In this document: positions 30,998 through 55,746 of the stretch, piece after piece
How the letters are laid out: every line of letters begins with the position of its first letter
Position numbering within the stretch: position 1 is the first letter of the stretch
Virus record (IMG/VR): IMGVR_UViG_3300024259_000033
Location: 1-60,032 of that record
Length of the DNA stretch: 60,032 nucleotides
Direction: 5' to 3' (one strand)
Source of the DNA: a virus
Notes under the pieces: model-generated
Database searches by the model: none
Seen by the model: the letters and a program-made list of their open reading frames with translations, nothing else
Told to the model about the DNA's origin: nothing
Program-made: the position numbers and the translations under genes

Positions 30998-32206
30998 TCA
31001 TTTCTTCTTCTCTTCTCTATGTTTTTTATCACAAACTTTACACTGATTGCTCAATCCATCATGATTAGTAGTCTTCTTAACAAAATTCCTCGTATCTTTC
31101 AATTTTTTCTTCCCACAGCTAGAGCAATTCTTCCACTTATTATTGCTTTGTCTAAATAACCATTCATCATAAATCAAATCTGCGGTAACTGCTATCTTCA
31201 TACAAATCTCTTGTTTCCATATCGTACTTATATAATTCACCGAATACGCAAGACCAAACATCATTCGTAATTCATGCTGTATACGCTCATTCGTCCACTT
31301 ATCAATCTTCCTTATAAGTATCTGCATACGTGGAGGAGCAAGTGGCGCTCTCTTAATAGTTTCATCCAATGACCACATAATGTATTTCATTTGACCGTTA
31401 AGATTAGCTTCTGACGATTGACGAAGGAGAGAATAGTTCTCTAATAAGTGATAGACATGGTCAGGGTTATTTAGTTGTAAGCGAGGTGCTGGCTTACCAT
31501 ATTTATCCACGAATGAATCAGATTCCCAGTCGATTGCGGCGGGAGCATTAAAGGTTGTACCCATCGTAAAGCAAGGCGGATGCGCTGAGTCTTTAAGATA
31601 GTATTGATGGCGACGTATATCAATAAGGGTATGTTTCCATTTGTACTTTGTTATATTATCTAAAACAGGTACTGCGGGCCTACCTTCCTCCTCTTCTATT
31701 TTTCCATTATTAACATCTAATATGTATTGCATGCGGTCAATTGTAATCCAAACTTCTTTCATTCCTGGTATATCACCATGATGAGTTTTTGCATTGGTAC
31801 ATATTCCTTCTTTATTTGTATATGGGCGAATTATAGTTTGTTTTGGTTTGGTATATGTATTTCTCTTAATTGGTTTAATTTCTTTTTGGTCGAACATAGG
31901 ATTTTGTAGCAAAGCGTCTAGTGATTCTGGTTGTTTCTTTTTATAGGAATTATGTTTTCCTTCTATTTGAACATTTTTCTTTTGTACCTCATTCTTCTCT
32001 GTTTTCGGGTCTTTACCATATAATATATAGTTAGCTGCCCCTTCTAGTTGTTTAGTGACACTAGTTGATACTCCTAATCCTTTATTAGAGTAATATTCTT
32101 CTAGTGTAGTTATCACATTATCATCTACAATTTTATTGACAAGTGCGGCACGGTCTACATTACTGTATACTCCATAATCTAGTTGTTTCAATATTTGTAA
32201 ATCCAT
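30998..32206 (-). CDS. Zinc-ribbon protein, first gene of the virion operon, 402 aa
   Basis: The C-terminus holds a four-Cys zinc ribbon (WKNCSSCGKKKLKDTRNF ... LSNQCKVCDKKHREEKKK). The central region has PGMKEVWITIDRMQYILDVN and a helical stretch LLENYSLLRQSSEANLNGQM. It is the promoter-proximal gene of the leftward structural operon, with RBS CAGGAGATT before the ATG. Similar zinc-ribbon proteins occur upstream of terminase genes in Gram-positive phages and may bind the packaging site, but that is inference. No catalytic motif was seen. Confidence 0.45.
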   Translation of the reverse strand: MDLQILKQLDYGVYSNVDRAALVNKIVDDNVITTLEEYYSNKGLGVSTSVTKQLEGAANYILYGKDPKTEKNEVQKKNVQIEGKHNSYKKKQPESLDALLQNPMFDQKEIKPIKRNTYTKPKQTIIRPYTNKEGICTNAKTHHGDIPGMKEVWITIDRMQYILDVNNGKIEEEEGRPAVPVLDNITKYKWKHTLIDIRRHQYYLKDSAHPPCFTMGTTFNAPAAIDWESDSFVDKYGKPAPRLQLNNPDHVYHLLENYSLLRQSSEANLNGQMKYIMWSLDETIKRAPLAPPRMQILIRKIDKWTNERIQHELRMMFGLAYSVNYISTIWKQEICMKIAVTADLIYDEWLFRQSNNKWKNCSSCGKKKLKDTRNFVKKTTNHDGLSNQCKVCDKKHREEKKK

Positions 32207-32656: not shown

Positions 32657-32685
32657 TTGACTTTTAGACGTCTATAATATATACT
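32657..32685 (+). promoter_or_regulatory. Promoter with internal palindrome (operator) before nuclease-like gene
   Basis: TTGACT (32657-32662), 17 bp, TATACT (32680-32685). The spacer contains the perfect 10-bp palindrome TAGACGTCTA (32665-32674), which shares its AGACGT half-site with the 19-bp palindromes downstream. A protein bound there would occlude RNA polymerase, so this looks like an autoregulatory or repressor operator. Confidence 0.7.
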
Positions 32686-32723
32686 TATAGAGTAATACTA
32701 TATTTAAAGTGAGGTATTAGAAA

Positions 32724-33341
32724 ATGTCAAAAAATTACAAACGTACAGACAGGCAAAGAGCGAATTTCCAGAAATTGTTAAAAACGCTAAATGTGGCAGA
32801 TGATGGCAAAACTGGAAAAACATTGGAAATGGTTGTTAGACGTGAATTAAATAATCGTTATAAGTTTGACAGCCTAAAAAGCGTAGCACCTGCGAATATG
32901 GAAGATGTTTCCAGAGCAGGTAAAAATTATGAGGTTAAAAGTGGTGGCGGTGAATTATTGACAGCAAGATTAGAGGATTTACAGAATTTGACAATCGAGC
33001 AAGCGGTTGACAAAATAATGGAAAATTATTCCACTACTGATTTCTTTATAATAAACGTTGCACCACTATTTTATAGCGAAACCCAAAATTTGCTATATGA
33101 TAACACTTGGGTACTAAATCGACTAGGATTTGCCAGTTGGTTATTAGGACAAGTGAAAATGTTAAAAACTGGTAAAGAAGGAAAATTGATTACACCGATT
33201 AGAATGTCACCGAAGGCAAAATCTGGTAATCGAGGGTATTGCTTATCTTTACAAACTCCGAGTTATTTTACAGAAACGACATTAATTGACAATTCGATTT
33301 GTAGCTTTAGTGATTACTTAAAGAAATTGAGAAGTGCATAA
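32724..33341 (+). CDS. PD-(D/E)XK nuclease-like / restriction-endonuclease-like protein
   Basis: 205 aa. After KTGKTLEMVVRRELNNRYKF (the Glu-bearing helix of PD-(D/E)XK folds) comes ANMEDVSRAGKNYEVKSGGG, where Asp, about ten residues, then E-x-K fits the catalytic core. The C-terminal half has a WLLGQVKMLKTG segment and a strand-rich end. RBS AGTGAGGTATTAG. It is the first gene of the rightward palindrome-marked cluster. Candidates are a Holliday-junction-type or restriction-like nuclease. A DNA-binding regulator derived from that fold is also possible, because the shared operator lies in its own promoter. Confidence 0.55.
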   Translation: MSKNYKRTDRQRANFQKLLKTLNVADDGKTGKTLEMVVRRELNNRYKFDSLKSVAPANMEDVSRAGKNYEVKSGGGELLTARLEDLQNLTIEQAVDKIMENYSTTDFFIINVAPLFYSETQNLLYDNTWVLNRLGFASWLLGQVKMLKTGKEGKLITPIRMSPKAKSGNRGYCLSLQTPSYFTETTLIDNSICSFSDYLKKLRSA

Positions 33342-33347
33342 TTTAAG

Positions 33348-33376
33348 GGCTTGTGAGACTAATAGTCTCACAAGCC
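33348..33376. repeat. 13-bp perfect stem-loop between genes
   Basis: GGCTTGTGAGACT (33348-33360), loop AAT, AGTCTCACAAGCC (33364-33376). It is a very stable hairpin 7 bp past the stop of the nuclease-like gene. There is no clear T run after it, so it may be a weak terminator, a processing site or an mRNA stabiliser. Confidence 0.7.
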
Positions 33377-33431
33377 ATAATTTACCATTCCGTAGGGTTG
33401 ATACCGTACGGGATACGGGAGATGGAAAGAA

Positions 33432-33734
33432 ATGACAAAACAGTTTAGAATTGATAATTTAAAAAGAAAAAAAGAAGTTAATGAAAATAAAATTAAATTG
33501 ACAGAATTTGCCATATCAAAACTAGATAGCGTACCAATTAACCAGAAAATATTCATTAAGGTATATTATGGCAATCGTTTTAACTTTGCTAAAACTAGAT
33601 TGTATAACTGTACTATGACAGAATTTACCAGTAATATTAAGAAGTTTAATCGTACTATTACAAAAATTGCCAAACAAGGTGGAGGCTTCCAGATGTTTGA
33701 TGATAGTAACGGGTGTGATATGGTAGTGGTATAA
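33432..33734 (+). CDS. Basic hypothetical protein, 100 aa
   Basis: Lys/Asn-rich protein MTKQFRIDNLKRKKEVNENK with a central IFIKVYYGNRFNFAKTRLYN and C-terminal AKQGGGFQMFDDSNGCDMVV. RBS GGGAGATGGAAAG. It lies in the first rightward unit, after the stable hairpin, and is closed by a terminator at 33776. No family recognised; the basic character would allow nucleic-acid binding. Confidence 0.5.
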   Translation: MTKQFRIDNLKRKKEVNENKIKLTEFAISKLDSVPINQKIFIKVYYGNRFNFAKTRLYNCTMTEFTSNIKKFNRTITKIAKQGGGFQMFDDSNGCDMVVV

Positions 33735-33775
33735 TATGGTAGTAGTAGTATTATATGGTATCGTTTAATAGTAAT

Positions 33776-33798
33776 AAGGGAACGGCTGTTCCCTTTTT
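33776..33798 (+). terminator. Rho-independent terminator
   Basis: AAGGGAAC / GTTCCCTT stem (33776-33783, 33788-33795) followed by TTTTC. It closes the unit ending with the 100-aa gene. Confidence 0.85.
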
Positions 33799-33811
33799 CT
33801 TTATATGTTTT

Positions 33812-33830
33812 TTAGACGTACAACGTCTAA
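33812..33830. promoter_or_regulatory. 19-bp palindromic operator, copy 1
   Basis: TTAGACGTACAACGTCTAA, arms TTAGACGT/ACGTCTAA around ACA. It lies just after a terminator and upstream of the unit encoding a 22-aa peptide. The downstream promoter here is weak (TTGTAT-like -35). Confidence 0.85.
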
Positions 33831-33898
33831 GAAAAGGGGTTGTATATAGGGTTATTATATGGTAGTATTAAGTATATCTTGAATGGAGAATTACCAGT

Positions 33899-33967
33899 AT
33901 GTATAACTATGAAACAGACCAGTTTGAGCCTGATGACGGGGTTACCTTAGAACCAGAAGAGTATTAA
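33899..33967 (+). CDS. 22-aa acidic peptide
   Basis: MYNYETDQFEPDDGVTLEPE plus EY, with seven acidic residues and no basic ones. TGGAGAA lies eight bases before the ATG. It is preceded by an operator palindrome and followed by its own terminator, so it is a stand-alone unit like its neighbours. A regulatory or inhibitor peptide is conceivable; a chance ORF cannot be excluded. Confidence 0.4.
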   Translation: MYNYETDQFEPDDGVTLEPEEY

Positions 33968-33992
33968 GCTGAGCAATAGTTTTGTCTGAGCA

Positions 33993-34018
33993 AGCACTCA
34001 ATATTGAGTGTTTGTTTT
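33993..34018 (+). terminator. Rho-independent terminator
   Basis: The perfect palindrome CACTCAATATTGAGTG (33995-34010) followed by TTTGTTTTTA closes the 22-aa peptide unit. Confidence 0.75.
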
Positions 34019-34029
34019 TAGTGTATTTT

Positions 34030-34085
34030 TTAGACGTACAACGTCTAAGAAAACATTTGACATAGTGGGTTTACTATGCTATAAT
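34030..34085 (+). promoter_or_regulatory. Operator copy 2 with promoter of HAD gene
   Basis: Palindrome TTAGACGTACAACGTCTAA at 34030-34048, eight bp, then TTGACA (34057-34062), 17 bp, TATAAT (34080-34085). The consensus promoter and fixed offset are repeated at three further genes. Confidence 0.85.
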
Positions 34086-34113
34086 TAGGTATAGTTAATA
34101 GAGGAGGAAAATA

Positions 34114-34578
34114 ATGGTAAGAGTTATATTTGATATGGACGGTACGATTGCGGATTTATATGCTGTCAATAATTGGCTTGAGGGATTAAGAGCAGAAAAA
34201 GCGGGATTATACATAAATTGTCAGCCAATGGTGGATATGGTAAGATTGACTAATATATGTAAAAGATTACAAAGCAAGGGAATTAAGATAGATATTATCA
34301 GTTGGGCATCTCTCGGTTGTTCAGAGGAATATTTTGACATAATCAAGCAAGAAAAAAAGGCATGGTTAAAGAAATATTTTCCAGTTGAGTTTGATAGTAT
34401 TAGCATTACGCCTTATGGTTTCCCAAAAGAAAAAGTTGCACTTAGAGGACAAACAAAAATTTTAATTGATGATAATATTGATGTTTTAAATTCATGGCAA
34501 ACACCGATACAACGTAAAGCGATTAATGCGAATAGTGATTTTATAGAAGTTTTAGAAATTATGGATAACATTCTCTAA
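34114..34578 (+). CDS. HAD-superfamily hydrolase
   Basis: 154 aa. Motif I FDMDGTIADL (D nucleophile and D+2 acid) lies at residues 6-15. A Ser-bearing strand IKIDIISWASLG (motif II) is near 66-77. A Lys in FPKEKVALRG (motif III) precedes ILIDDNIDVL (motif IV, paired Asp) near 118-127. Phage HAD proteins of this length act as small-molecule or polynucleotide phosphatases; the substrate cannot be deduced. RBS GAGGAGGAAAATA. The gene is an isolated transcription unit under operator copy 2. Confidence 0.8.
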   Translation: MVRVIFDMDGTIADLYAVNNWLEGLRAEKAGLYINCQPMVDMVRLTNICKRLQSKGIKIDIISWASLGCSEEYFDIIKQEKKAWLKKYFPVEFDSISITPYGFPKEKVALRGQTKILIDDNIDVLNSWQTPIQRKAINANSDFIEVLEIMDNIL

Positions 34579-34596
34579 CCTCCTAATATAGTACAG

Positions 34597-34617
34597 AGAA
34601 GGAAAATTTTTCCTTCT
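34597..34617 (+). terminator. Rho-independent terminator
   Basis: AGAAGGAAAA / TTTTCCTTCT stem (34597-34617), followed by a T-rich stretch. It lies after the HAD gene and immediately before operator copy 3. Confidence 0.7.
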
Positions 34618-34626
34618 TATAGTTTT

Positions 34627-34683
34627 TTAGACGTACAACGTCTAAGAAATACTATTGACAAATTTTATTTCTCGTGTTATAAT
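34627..34683 (+). promoter_or_regulatory. Operator copy 3 with promoter
   Basis: Palindrome at 34627-34645, nine bp, TTGACA (34655-34660), 17 bp, TATAAT (34678-34683). Confidence 0.85.
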
Positions 34684-34714
34684 TACTTATAAAATAAAAG
34701 GAGGAAGTCAAATT

Positions 34715-35023
34715 ATGGCTGACAAAAAATTTAAAGTTTCAGAGGTAAACGGTGAAATTCGTGAACAGGTTTTTTCTATTCTTGAAAGTTCTCTTAAGGA
34801 AAGCGGAGCTGAACAGTATAACACGGGCACTTATGGCATTTCCGTTAAAGACTTAACGGGAGCAGAACGAATTGTCGAGGTGAAAATCACAGCTAAGAAG
34901 GCAGATTTTGACATTGGTGAAGCATTGGAAGATTACCAAAACAAGCTCACAGCGAAAGAAGAACGTGAGATAAAGGCGAAAGCTAAAGCGGTTAAAGTTA
35001 CAAAAATTGCCAAAAAGGATTGA
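34715..35023 (+). CDS. Lys/Ala-rich small protein, paralog A (102 aa)
   Basis: The start is set at ATG 34715 (MADKKFKVSEVNGEIREQVF) behind AAAGGAGGAAGTC. An upstream in-frame ATG would overlap the promoter. An N-terminal ~70-aa alpha/beta domain contains YGISVKDLTGAERIVEVKIT and AKKADFDIGEALEDYQNKL, then a basic helical tail (EEREIKAKAKAVKVTKIAKK). Three further genes (36061, 36760 and minus-strand 37776) share the order G-x-W/Y-x-I/F-x-V-x-D-L-x-G...V-K-I-T-x-K-K-x-D-x-x-I/R-G-(D/E)A...D-E-Y and a Lys/Ala tail. Function unknown; the basic tail suggests nucleic-acid or chromatin-like binding. Confidence 0.7.
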   Translation: MADKKFKVSEVNGEIREQVFSILESSLKESGAEQYNTGTYGISVKDLTGAERIVEVKITAKKADFDIGEALEDYQNKLTAKEEREIKAKAKAVKVTKIAKKD

Positions 35024-35029
35024 TTGATT

Positions 35030-35051
35030 GGGGAACATTAGTTCCCCTTTT
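35030..35051 (+). terminator. Rho-independent terminator
   Basis: GGGGAAC, loop ATTA, GTTCCCC, TTTT (35030-35051). It closes the paralog A unit. Confidence 0.9.
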
Positions 35052-35063
35052 CATTTGTAGTTT

Positions 35064-35120
35064 TTAGACGTACAACGTCTAAATAAAGGTATTGACATTA
35101 TTATTCTTTTGTTATATAAT
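35064..35120 (+). promoter_or_regulatory. Operator copy 4 with promoter of exonuclease
   Basis: Palindrome at 35064-35082, nine bp, TTGACA (35092-35097), 17 bp, TATAAT (35115-35120). Confidence 0.85.
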
Positions 35121-35154
35121 AGGTATATATTAAATAATAGAAAGAGGTAAAAAA

Positions 35155-35919
35155 ATGTATAATATTTGTATTTTTGACACAGAAACAACTGGTTTAGTTA
35201 AGCCGTTTTGTTACAATATTGGATATATTATCCATGACCTAGAAACTGGCAAAGATTTACTAAAGCGGGAATTTGTGGTTGAGCAGATTTGGCATAATAT
35301 ACCATTATTTTCTACGGCTTATTATGCTGATAAAAGACCAATCTATATTAAACGCATGAGAGCAAGAAAAATTCTTTTGGAAAAATTTGGATATATCACT
35401 CAAATTATGAAACGTGATTTTAAAAAACTAAATGTTAAAAACGCTTATGCATATAATTCAACTTTTGACAAAAATGTTTTTGAATTTAATTGTGATTTTT
35501 TCAAAGTATTAAACCCATTTGATAATGTGGAAATATTTGATATTTGGACTTATGCACAGAATAAAATTGCTTTTACTGATGATTACAAAGCTTTTTGTGA
35601 AAAAAATGAACTATTTACAGAAACTGGTAATTTCTCCACTAATGCGGAAAATATATATAAATTTATTACTAATGACAATGAATTTATCGAAGAACACACA
35701 GCATTAAATGATAGTAAAATAGAATTGGCAATTTTGCTAGAATGTGTCAAACGTGGTGCGCAATTACAAACTCACTATAAAAAGTATAGTTGTGTTCCTA
35801 GACATAATAACAAACCATGCAAGATAAAAGTGGATAATAATGTAATTTTTGAAGGTACTTTCCAGAAGAAGTATGCAACTAAAGATTTGAAAGTTATTAA
35901 CTTAACTACTAAAGTTTGA
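35155..35919 (+). CDS. DnaQ-like DEDDh 3'-5' exonuclease
   Basis: 254 aa. Exo I is IFDTETTGLVKP (residues 6-17, Asp/Glu pair). Exo II is NAYAYNSTFDKNVFEF (Asp after YNSTF). Exo III is EEHTALNDSKIELAIL, with His as general base and Asp four residues on. This is the proofreading-type single-strand exonuclease fold, as in phage recombination or DNA-repair exonucleases. The C-terminal ~50 residues (YKKYSCVPRHNNKPCKIKVD) form a small basic extension. RBS AAAGAGGTAAAAAA. It is transcribed alone under operator copy 4. Confidence 0.85.
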   Translation: MYNICIFDTETTGLVKPFCYNIGYIIHDLETGKDLLKREFVVEQIWHNIPLFSTAYYADKRPIYIKRMRARKILLEKFGYITQIMKRDFKKLNVKNAYAYNSTFDKNVFEFNCDFFKVLNPFDNVEIFDIWTYAQNKIAFTDDYKAFCEKNELFTETGNFSTNAENIYKFITNDNEFIEEHTALNDSKIELAILLECVKRGAQLQTHYKKYSCVPRHNNKPCKIKVDNNVIFEGTFQKKYATKDLKVINLTTKV

Positions 35920-35923
35920 CATT

Positions 35924-35944
35924 AGAGGGAAATTTTCCCTCTTA
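35924..35944 (+). terminator. Rho-independent terminator
   Basis: AGAGGGAAA / TTTTCCCTCT stem with a following T-rich region, directly before operator copy 5. Confidence 0.7.
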
Positions 35945-35950
35945 TAGTTT

Positions 35951-36007
35951 TTAGACGTACAACGTCTAAGAAATACTATTGACAAATAGAATGAAATATT
36001 ATATAAT
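35951..36007 (+). promoter_or_regulatory. Operator copy 5 with promoter
   Basis: Palindrome at 35951-35969, nine bp, TTGACA (35979-35984), 17 bp, TATAAT (36002-36007). Confidence 0.85.
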
Positions 36008-36060
36008 GTATTTAGAGTTAAGAAATAAAAAATTCCAAATACGAAAGGTGGATAAAAAAA

Positions 36061-36393
36061 ATGGGCGAAGTTAAAATTACAAAAATGGCAAATGACAAAA
36101 GTGTACGTGACCAAATGGTCAATGTATTAGGCGAGGTTGTCGAAAATAGCGAGGGACAAATTGGAACTTCAGAATGGCTTTTTGGTTTTGAAGATTTAAA
36201 AGGTCAAATGCGTGGCGTAACTATTAAAGTTACTGTTAAAAAAGATGATTTCAACATCGGTGACTCAGTAGACGAGTACGAGGAACTTGTACTTGAAAAG
36301 GCGGCTATCGCAGAAGAAAAAGCGATTGCTAAAGCAAAAAAAATTGCGGCTGATGAAAAAAAACGTGCGGCTAAAAAAGCGAAAGCTGAATAG
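36061..36393 (+). CDS. Lys/Ala-rich small protein, paralog B (110 aa)
   Basis: MGEVKITKMANDKSVRDQMV ... TSEWLFGFEDLKGQMRGVTI then KVTVKKDDFNIGDSVDEYEE and a Lys/Ala helical tail. It shares with paralog C the opening K-I-T-K-M-x-N-D-x-S-V-R. RBS GAAAGGTGG. It is a single-gene unit under operator copy 5. The same unknown function as its paralogs is assumed. Confidence 0.7.
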   Translation: MGEVKITKMANDKSVRDQMVNVLGEVVENSEGQIGTSEWLFGFEDLKGQMRGVTIKVTVKKDDFNIGDSVDEYEELVLEKAAIAEEKAIAKAKKIAADEKKRAAKKAKAE

Positions 36394-36395
36394 TT

Positions 36396-36425
36396 AAAGG
36401 GGGATTTATCCCCTTTATTTTTTTT
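36396..36425 (+). terminator. Rho-independent terminator
   Basis: AAAGGGG / CCCCTTT stem (36396-36402, 36410-36416) followed by ATTTTTTTT. The T run abuts the variant palindrome at 36424. Confidence 0.9.
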
Positions 36426-36442
36426 AGACGTTCTACGTCTAA
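36424..36442. promoter_or_regulatory. Variant 19-bp palindrome, copy 6
   Basis: TTAGACGTTCTACGTCTAA: identical arms with a TCT centre instead of ACA. No TTGACA promoter follows on the plus strand. A partial site TAGACGTCT lies at 36488-36496. It may be a last operator of the array or a decoy. Confidence 0.75.
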
Positions 36443-36759: not shown

Positions 36760-37101
36760 ATGGGAAAAATTACTAAAATGGTAAATGATGCGAGTGTAAG
36801 GAATTATGTGGCAATCGAGCTAGAAGATGTATTGACAAAATTAGGTGCAGAAAAAGTTGGAAATGCATTATGGGCAATTCCAGTTGTTGACTTAAGAGGT
36901 GAAGATAGGTCAGCTACCATCGGAATTACAGTTAAGAAAGAAGATTACAATCGAGGCGATGCAGCGGATGAATATACAGACCTTGTAGAAGAAAGGAAAG
37001 TTAAGGCAGAAGAGAAAGCAGTTGCCAAAGCTAAGAAAATTAAGGTAGATGCAAAAAGACGTGCGGTTATGGCAGAAAAAGCCAATGCGGAAAAAGAATA
37101 G
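36760..37101 (+). CDS. Lys/Ala-rich small protein, paralog C (113 aa)
   Basis: The start is chosen at ATG 36760 (MGKITKMVNDASVRNYVAIE) seven bases after AAGGAG. Another in-frame ATG at 36730 lacks an RBS. The core is LWAIPVVDLRGEDRSATIGI and TVKKEDYNRGDAADEYTDLV, then a basic Ala/Lys tail. Clearly paralogous to the genes at 34715, 36061 and 37776(-), it is regulated by a different promoter type from paralogs A and B. Confidence 0.7.
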   Translation: MGKITKMVNDASVRNYVAIELEDVLTKLGAEKVGNALWAIPVVDLRGEDRSATIGITVKKEDYNRGDAADEYTDLVEERKVKAEEKAVAKAKKIKVDAKRRAVMAEKANAEKE

Positions 37102-37452: not shown

Positions 37453-37776
37453 CTATTCTGCAGCTTCTGCTGCTTTAGCTGCCTTAGCAGCCGCCTTTTC
37501 AGCTTTTTCTTTAGCTTTTGCTTCAGCTAAAGCTTTTCTCTCAGCTTGCTTTTCTTGCTTTTCAGCATACTCAGCTCTGATTGCATCAAGATCAAACTTC
37601 TCAGGATTCTTATAAGTAACTTTCACTGTGACGAACTGTCCATCGCCAACATCAGCTAACATTCCTTCTGAAACTGGTTCTGTAACAAAACCTGCTCCTT
37701 GTAATGCTTCTCCTACTACTTCATAAAGACTTCCTCTTAATACCGTTTGGTCTGCTGCTGTTAATTTTTCTGACAT
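37453..37776 (-). CDS. Lys/Ala-rich small protein, paralog D (107 aa)
   Basis: The start at 37776 (MSEKLTAADQTVLRGSLYEV) follows TGGAGT; a longer upstream start lacks an RBS. GDGQFVTVKVTYKNPEKFDL, then AIRAEYAEKQEKQAERKALA, and a tail of nearly pure Ala/Lys/Glu (KEKAEKAAAKAAKAAEAAE). It is the most diverged of the four paralogs and is encoded on the opposite strand behind a ~210-nt untranslated leader. The highly charged tail would be helical. Confidence 0.65.
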   Translation of the reverse strand: MSEKLTAADQTVLRGSLYEVVGEALQGAGFVTEPVSEGMLADVGDGQFVTVKVTYKNPEKFDLDAIRAEYAEKQEKQAERKALAEAKAKEKAEKAAAKAAKAAEAAE

Positions 37777-54334: not shown

Positions 54335-54859
54335 AAGTTATAAAGAGAATTAAAAAATAAATAGATTTGGCAGTTTGGTGTCAACGAAGATAAATATGGT
54401 AACATATGAAAAGATAGTGTGATAAACTATCGCTATGAAAATAGTCTATCCAAACAATTGAGGACAGAGAGCTTCCCCTAATGGGTGCTTGTTTCATTAA
54501 GTGATTTGTGGAACTATAGCCTGTGAAGTTTTCCCAAAATGCGATGGTGTCTTATAATGTGCTAATTGTTATAAGATTATGCTACGTCAGAAACAACGGA
54601 CAGTCTGCGTTTCGTGCTATTATAACGATAGCTAGGGAATTGGTAAAACGAACAGTATCTAGAACTCAAAGACTATAAGTTTGAACTTAATCAGTAAAAG
54701 CGATAGTCAATATTACAAACGGTTTTTGGTTTAGCCTAGAATCTAGTAATATATCATGAGTAAACATGATTGTTGAAAATGTATAGCGGTGTGTTGCATT
54801 TATTATTCGCAAGATAATAAACAACTGTACTGGCACATCGTGTATCAGACCAGATTTGC

Positions 54860-54914
54860 GTAGGTTCGATCCCTACCTTCCCCACCATTTGGGGAAGTAG
54901 CTCAGTGGTAGAGC
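54860..54914 (+). tRNA. Permuted tRNA halves (3' half before 5' half)
   Basis: First comes T-arm GTAGG-TTCGATC-CCTAC, acceptor CTTCCCC and ACCA (54860-54887). Then comes TTT, followed by acceptor GGGGAAG (54891-54897), TA and D-arm GCTC-AGTGGTA-GAGC. The acceptor strands pair perfectly (7 of 7), but in reverse order, so the acceptor stem is a hairpin closed by ACCATTT. The anticodon arm is not resolved: after GAGC the sequence TTAGT-ATTAGA-ACTAA forms a hairpin, while ACCAG or CCAGA precedes the T-arm. Joining would need splicing or ligation of the flanking RNA. Confidence 0.6.
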
Positions 54915-55746
54915 ATTAGTATTAGAACTAAGTTAGAGAAAAGGTTATAAGCAAAAGACCAGTACATGGTTAGACGAAAGCAACTTAATGCCGTACTTAC
55001 AGAGGAATACGGCTCAATGGATACTGCAAGTTGAAATTGATTAATGGCATTTCTGCACGGTGGGTTCATTACCCTTTACATGCTGACGGTAGGAAATACA
55101 TTGAGTAGTTTAATTAATAAGAGGAGTGCCACTCTTTAAAAAAGGCAGTTGTAAGCAATACCGTTTTGGAACGGTGGATAAATAGAGAATAAATAATTCT
55201 ATAAAAGATGCTTAATGGTAGTTATAATCTCAGACTTTACCTATTTCTGTAAACAAGTAAATTGCGAAAGCATTTATGAGTTAAAGGAGTTTATGTAAGT
55301 AAACTCCATGATGTCGATGTAGTATGCCTCCACGTGGCGACATTGGGTAATTCTAAATACTATAGGTGAATTAATGACTGAATAATCCTTTTCACGGGAT
55401 AAGGTATGGTAAATATCGGGGTGAAGTTCCCTAATTTGAAATTCGATAGAAATATAAGATGTTAGCCAGTTTCAATATGATTGACCGTCATTAGATAGAC
55501 TAAACGATAGAGAAGCTATGCGGTGTTAAAACTGAATTTAGTTTCTTGCGGCTAGAGTATATCTCGAATGTGGTTTAGGTTGTAATATAATATGAAAGTC
55601 CGCTAATTTTGCAAGTAGTGAATGTATTACTTGGGTAAAACTGAATAACCCTGCTTCTAGTAAGTATCCTATTAATGAATGACGAGCCTATAAAGTTGAT
55701 TGAGAATGAAATTTACCAAATTAATATATACTATTGTATATATCAG

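Follow-up and report, generated by a model that had tools for sequence, protein, structure and literature searches.

Genes and palindromes of the array

The window (the whole 60,032-nucleotide stretch of viral DNA analyzed here, an IMG/VR fragment) contains an array of single-gene units on the plus strand, bordered by the first gene of a divergent packaging operon (30998–32206, minus strand). This border gene encodes a 402-aa protein that matches phrog_5767, “sigma factor” (E 1.2e-29), with an HTH-like segment and a C-terminal Cys4 zinc ribbon; its homologues mark the border of the array in relatives, and are also found in relatives without palindromes. On the other side of the border, the array-head promoter (TTGACT-17-TATACT, 32658–32686, plus strand, as are all array features below), read directly from the sequence, carries a half-operator, TTAGACGT (32664–32671), in its spacer. 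The head gene (32724–33341) encodes a 205-aa protein predicted to have a restriction-endonuclease (PD-(D/E)XK) fold, and a 100-aa open reading frame was called downstream of it (33432–33734). Unit 1 holds a predicted 22-codon open reading frame, again read directly from the sequence (33899–33967). The units beyond it encode a HAD-type phosphatase resembling 5'-deoxyribonucleotidases (34114–34578; phrog_2643, E 7.8e-11), a small paralog with a Lys-rich tail (34715–35023), a DEDDh-type exonuclease-like protein (35155–35919; phrog_20187, with invariant DxE, D, H, and D), and a second small paralog with a Lys-rich tail (36061–36393), both paralogs being assigned by family comparison. A fourth-unit paralog (36760–37101) has its own promoter without a full operator. 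The small-paralog family, with four copies in the window, was present in 22 of 22 contigs.

The exact 19-mer TTAGACGTACAACGTCTAA occurs five times in the window (33812–33830, 34030–34048, 34627–34645, 35064–35082, and 35951–35969), and a sixth copy at 36424–36442 is a centre variant, TTAGACGTTCTACGTCTAA, with two mismatches to the 19-mer. A preliminary description of this DNA had reported these six copies, and all are present where it placed them, against an expected count for the 19-mer of 0.01 in dinucleotide shuffles. Allowing a free 3-bp centre returned the six sites and no further copies in the 60-kb window, and a reversed-pattern control gave no matches there. Read from the DNA, each unit has the order terminator-like hairpin, palindrome, promoter, gene, with one palindrome per single-gene unit; as had been claimed, such a hairpin precedes every site.

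The promoter geometry that had been described for four of the sites is exact: TTGACA-17-TATAAT begins 8 bp after the site at 34030 (promoter 34057–34085) and 9 bp after those at 34627 (34655–34683), 35064 (35092–35120), and 35951 (35979–36007). The copy at 33812 shares the 9-bp geometry but has a weaker promoter, TTGTAT-17-TAGTAT (33840–33868). The variant at 36424 has TTGTCA 9 bp downstream, with no good −10 and hence no clear promoter, and resembles a site that has decayed or that ends the array. Similar promoterless end sites also occur in relatives.

Palindrome arrays in related phages

Counting the palindrome beyond the window, as the preliminary description had proposed, extended the array to other phages. 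In IMG/VR, 12 stretches contain the exact 19-mer and 78 its free-centre form, and about 30 other viral contigs carry at least three free-centre sites, TTAGACGT-NNN-ACGTCTAA, one per single-gene unit. Many of the array-bearing contigs apparently come from rumen. The window terminase has its best match in Geobacillus virus E3 (47%), and the window encodes 16 tRNAs. For comparison we took 21 related contigs whole; the sequence of relatives totals 1.48 Mb. In this sequence the half-sites TAGACGT and ACGTCTA are separated by a gap of 3 bp 320 times, whereas the remaining gap lengths between 0 and 12 total five occurrences. The outer TT and AA, which lie outside the search pattern, are invariant throughout the 10-bp spacing class (125 sites), while the 3-bp centre uses 47 of the 64 possible triplets over 409 de-duplicated sites. 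For 223/283 sites the preceding 70 bp contain a strong hairpin, compared with 37/283 in a control segment. Matches to the 14-base pattern in Patescibacteria and Paenarthrobacter have a fixed centre (TAGACGTCSGACGTCTA) or represent one conserved locus, and we therefore treat them as unrelated to the phage motif.

The sites are not spread in genes: 46 of the 320 fall within open reading frames as called mechanically, the individual calls being uncurated. They are conserved upstream of orthologs, preceding exonuclease, HAD, and small-paralog genes in 13–17 phages each. These shared arrays back the earlier proposal that one sequence-specific factor would control a regulon of single-gene units.

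The relatives have a common synteny, in which a late packaging operon starts with a 400–450 aa protein (phrog_5767) and the palindrome array diverges from it. Many contigs read TAG as an amino acid, which raises their open coverage from ∼0.64 to 0.87–0.91; alternative coding of this kind has been demonstrated experimentally in gut phages (PMC9523058). In-frame TAG is present in 14/18 of the phrog_5767 proteins, against 1/26, 2/20, 1/26, and 2/28 in array families. Because array genes avoid in-frame TAG and late genes use it, array genes would be translatable under the standard code, before recoding, which suits early expression. An Rfam search gave no match for a hammerhead-like motif.

Helical phasing to the −35 box

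Over the 409 de-duplicated sites, the distance from operator to −35 box clusters at about 10, 20, 30, and 40 bp. A word count (TTGAC, TTGCA, TTTAC) that uses no promoter model placed the peaks between the 17-mer and −35 at 8–10, 19–20, 29–30, and 40 bp. In a promoter scan that returned 283 good promoters, 91 of 107 spacings of at least 14 bp were in phase (Rayleigh R 0.75; the p of ∼1e-26 presumes independent sites and is hence optimistic). Two observations are independent of this p-value. Spacing classes are mixed within single phages (10, 20, 30, and 40 within one array of G019; 9–10, 19–20, and 29–31 in G012), and the exonuclease orthologs of different phages have spacings of 7–9, 18–20, 28–30, and 39 bp, that is, whole-turn differences. 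In two contigs, G013 and G004, the phasing is not clear.

Array operators all lie upstream and clear of −35, none overlapping an array promoter, and by comparison they keep the same helical face at different distances, G013 and G004 being unclear; both features are those of class I activation. Given a transcription start 7 bp after the −10 box, operator centres would fall near −55, −65, −75, and −85. The same-face phasing relative to the core promoter suggests that the bound factor touches RNA polymerase, most likely as class I activators do. With such direct contact, the looping that had been offered beside activation becomes unnecessary.

The array promoters are near consensus, with TTGACA or TTGACT in 246/283 and an extended −10 in 207/283, counts from a set chosen for good matches. 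An activator is therefore not obviously needed, and the footprint would be no different for a repressor that contacts polymerase. Such a protein would use the same operator and the same contact to hold polymerase at strong promoters, shutting the array off over time. There is a precedent in phi29 p4, a dimer on inverted repeats that contacts RNA polymerase and, beside promoters of different strength, activates some and impedes others, activating A3 and impeding A2c (PMC3100819). We nevertheless consider repression of the array unlikely, since the operator never overlaps array promoters and the core promoter is entered only at the head gene. In addition, the 12 contigs searched, several of which may be incomplete, yielded no integrase of the tyrosine or serine type, so there is no reason to expect a lysogeny repressor. 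Net activation of the array is the sign of regulation that we moderately favor.

The head gene and its promoter

At the first gene, a compact palindrome had been described between −35 and −10. An element is indeed there, as the spacer of the head promoter (TTGACT-17-TATACT) contains TTAGACGTCTA and the head gene has no upstream operator, but a conserved compact palindrome did not hold up: TAGACGTCTA occurs four times in the 1.48 Mb of relatives' sequence, and two of these copies belong to full sites. Instead, the recurrent element in head promoters is the half-site TTAGACG. The window and contigs G001, G005, G007, G010, G015, G017, G019, G021, G025, and G032 each have a half-operator that sits in the spacer of the head promoter or overlaps its −35; about half the phages have a half-site in the head promoter. 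At promoter scores of at least 11, six half-sites fall in core promoters, all of them those of head-family genes.

The head half-site matches the phage's own operator in relatives that use other palindromes (see below): TTCGTAC in L290, L296, and L302, CATCTAA in L313, TTAGATGT in L417, and ACATCCA in L453. With one automatically picked promoter per head, 11 of 39 heads match their own arm at 7/8 positions or better, compared with 1.25 expected from shuffled arms (permutation p 0.002). Because the half-site is of the phage's own palindrome type, the head gene is probably repressed by the array's factor, as its negative target. The opposite effects once proposed for the first and the remaining promoters thus have their counterpart in a different layout of sites, while activation at the latter is what we infer. 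Negative wiring of the head gene also fits an autoregulated regulator, short of proof.

The head protein is small and is encoded by the first array gene in 20/20 contigs examined. It has invariant G, E, D, and ExK, and shows the D and (D/E)xK with a preceding E of the PD-(D/E)XK motif. A structure model of one member (pLDDT 93.9) gave, as nearly all of its leading matches, restriction enzymes, RecU/Hjc resolvases, and other PD-(D/E)XK enzymes; the best, NhoI, had a Z of 7.5, below 8, with an rmsd of 3.8 over 117 aligned residues. Foldseek alone found no significant PDB match for this model, and its best BFVD match was “Restriction endonuclease” (E 1.9e-8). The window head's own model is weaker (pLDDT 69) and points to the same superfamily. 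Judged from these models, the head protein is of the PD-(D/E)XK fold.

A search for a gene linked to the palindrome by co-occurrence, also suggested earlier, pointed to the head gene, found in 15/15 contigs with the operator and 0/18 without, but this count overstates the link. In deeper searches most of the apparent exceptions turned out to have a head, yet a few contigs with the operator still lacked a match, and relatives with other palindromes have other small PD-(D/E)XK-like proteins at the head position. Aligned heads proved too diverse to serve for scanning the collection.

A protein of this fold might instead cut or nick the palindromes, which would then be cassette borders for gene exchange between phages, with regulation secondary. 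The sites do lie at unit borders, the head nuclease fold has its conserved D and ExK, and the gene content of arrays differs widely. We find this highly improbable, because 10-bp phasing to −35 and half-sites in the head promoter are needless for cutting and cutting at 20 or more sites would destroy the phage's own genome. With the palindromes taken as regulatory sites, the head protein is a tentative candidate for the operator-binding factor. Similarly tentative is the fuller proposal, in which the head protein would bind the operator, activate the array from the phased palindromes, repress its own gene through the half-operator, and, by its rapid divergence, drive the switching of operators.

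Operator types among related phages

Using the array exonuclease as bait for relatives with other palindromes, we found the gap-3 palindromes TTAGATGT, TTCGTACGT, TTGGATGT, TTATCTGT, TTAGACGA, and TTAGGTGT. Around the phrog_5767 border gene we found TTAGACTT, TTAGACCT, and palindromes of lower similarity, together with TTAGGTGT at a gap of 2 and TTAGACGT at a gap of 4. These other operator types have the same spacing classes relative to −35 and the same array layout. Array-type single-gene units also occur in phage Phass-1 and in the Enterococcus phages EF1 and VRE9_1, there with no recurrent 8-3-8 palindrome.

Since close relatives carry different palindromes, a host origin of the factor is unlikely. 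Binding by a host transcription factor would suit promoters of the host sigma-A type, and the phage factor is still only a candidate, but we find it the least credible explanation, given the different palindromes of closely related phages, the occurrence of the free-centre motif in many copies only in phage-like contigs among the matches listed, and its presence in 0/288 other genomes of the class of one array-holding bin, a class that may not be the host.

The operator type requires nine changes on the head tree and nine on the neighbour tree. Heads that are 60–62% identical serve different operators, and very divergent heads share one. As a test of what drives switching, tree covariation gave no discrimination, whether the operator was compared with the head or with the border gene. 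The border “sigma factor,” the array winged-helix protein, the small paralogs, the HAD phosphatase, and the exonuclease were each rejected as palindrome markers, all being present in palindrome-free relatives too. Among array families, nearest-neighbour operator purity was highest for the winged-helix protein (18/23), in differences that are small and confounded by descent. An 83-aa winged-helix protein of the gyrase region was found in 8/8 large contigs; its recognition-helix region differs among phages sharing one operator, and we set it aside.

Proposed regulation and comparison with known systems

We assign a probability of roughly 0.6 to the following explanation as a whole. The palindrome would serve as operator for a single DNA-binding protein, encoded by the phage and probably a dimer, through which a lineage of large phages would control an early cluster of single-gene units. 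From its site before each promoter, on the side of the helix that polymerase occupies, this protein would touch host RNA polymerase and, most likely, activate the units together. At the head promoter, where the half-operator lies between −35 and −10, the same protein would block the head gene while accumulating. Lineages would have swapped to other palindromes of the same geometry, giving each phage a private regulon key.

By sequence comparison, then, this is a phage regulon whose palindromes are phased and differ in type between lineages, and whose head gene is wired oppositely. New beyond the first observation are the quantized spacing to −35, the operator switching, and the own-type half-site of the head. 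The arrays look like a natural experiment on promoter geometry, with more than 280 scored promoters and one operator shifted by whole helical turns, and they may offer a family of matched operator/regulator pairs of different specificity in uncultured phages abundant in animal guts. Should the head protein prove to be the regulator, it would be a case of a restriction-endonuclease fold converted into a transcription factor. Whichever reading holds, the palindromes are a simple metagenome marker of the phage lineage and of its early gene cluster.

P2 Ogr and P4 delta provide class I-type activation from sites near −55, and the centre we place near −55 coincides with the position of Ogr sites. 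VirR of Clostridium perfringens is a Gram-positive precedent for helical phasing (PMC2838878). These class I activators, like the factor proposed here, have a palindromic or repeated site upstream of −35 whose effect depends on the helical face. Unlike those systems, the present phages have ∼6–25 separate single-gene units each, with a spacing that slides by whole turns up to 40 bp; homologues of Ogr and VirR were not identified in them, and activation is what we infer.

In SPbeta, the repeated element SPBRE is bound by MrpR (PMC10516654). As here, this is a dispersed intergenic operator in a large Firmicutes phage, and the nuclease/recombinase-type fold of its regulator is a likeness to the candidate head protein. 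SPBRE is, however, a different, AT-rich motif, and the SPbeta genome has no copies of the TTAGACGTACAACGTCTAA-type palindrome, which rules out that the palindrome is SPBRE. A regulator of tyrosine-recombinase fold (PF00589) was found in 0/12 contigs, several of which may be incomplete. The phi29 p4 system resembles our proposal in its inverted-repeat dimer, polymerase contact, and effects that are opposite by promoter; it differs in having few sites in one region and strong bending, and p4 itself was not found here. Mycobacteriophage L5 has many dispersed copies of one regulator site, its stoperators, and shares with these phages the use of a single site in many copies. Stoperators are asymmetric, genome-wide, and tied to lysogeny, whereas the sites described here are palindromic, confined to one array, and phased to promoters.

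Genetic code and RNA features of the window and its relatives

The genetic code is not uniform among the related phages, the window included. TAG is read as sense in the late genes of six of the compared contigs (G010, G012, G014, G015, G016 and G017) and of other relatives of the window (L198-L281); the window itself, G001, G013 and G025 appear to use the standard code. The window also carries a GOLLD RNA on the plus strand (54786-55236, 167.9 bits), which lies within the tRNA-rich part of the phage, and ARAGORN found 16 tRNAs in the window.

In two compared contigs (L260 and L276), the intergenic space between the head gene of the array and the next gene holds the sequence CTGATGAG...CGAAA, which looks like the core of a hammerhead ribozyme, although an Rfam search at the gathering threshold returned no match.

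One more small paralog and other palindromes

Past the array end, at 37453-37776 of the window, the opposite (minus) strand encodes one more member of the family of small Lys-rich paralogs. Two relatives that lack the 8-3-8 operator (L311 and L363) carry other dense palindromes within the same arrays, for example TTGTTAAANNTTTAACAA, GAACATATGTTC and AATTGTCNGACAATT. Among Enterococcus relatives, the -35 box of the next gene sits inside a terminator-like inverted repeat, AAAAGGGTTGACAAACCCTTTT (phage VRE9_1, L368, 10777-15389). A fixed-centre palindrome, TAGACGTC(C/G)GACGTCTA, is dispersed in several Patescibacteria genomes (L089-L159: Giovannonibacteria, Nomurabacteria, Nealsonbacteria and Moranbacteria), with 2-5 copies per contig in some contigs.
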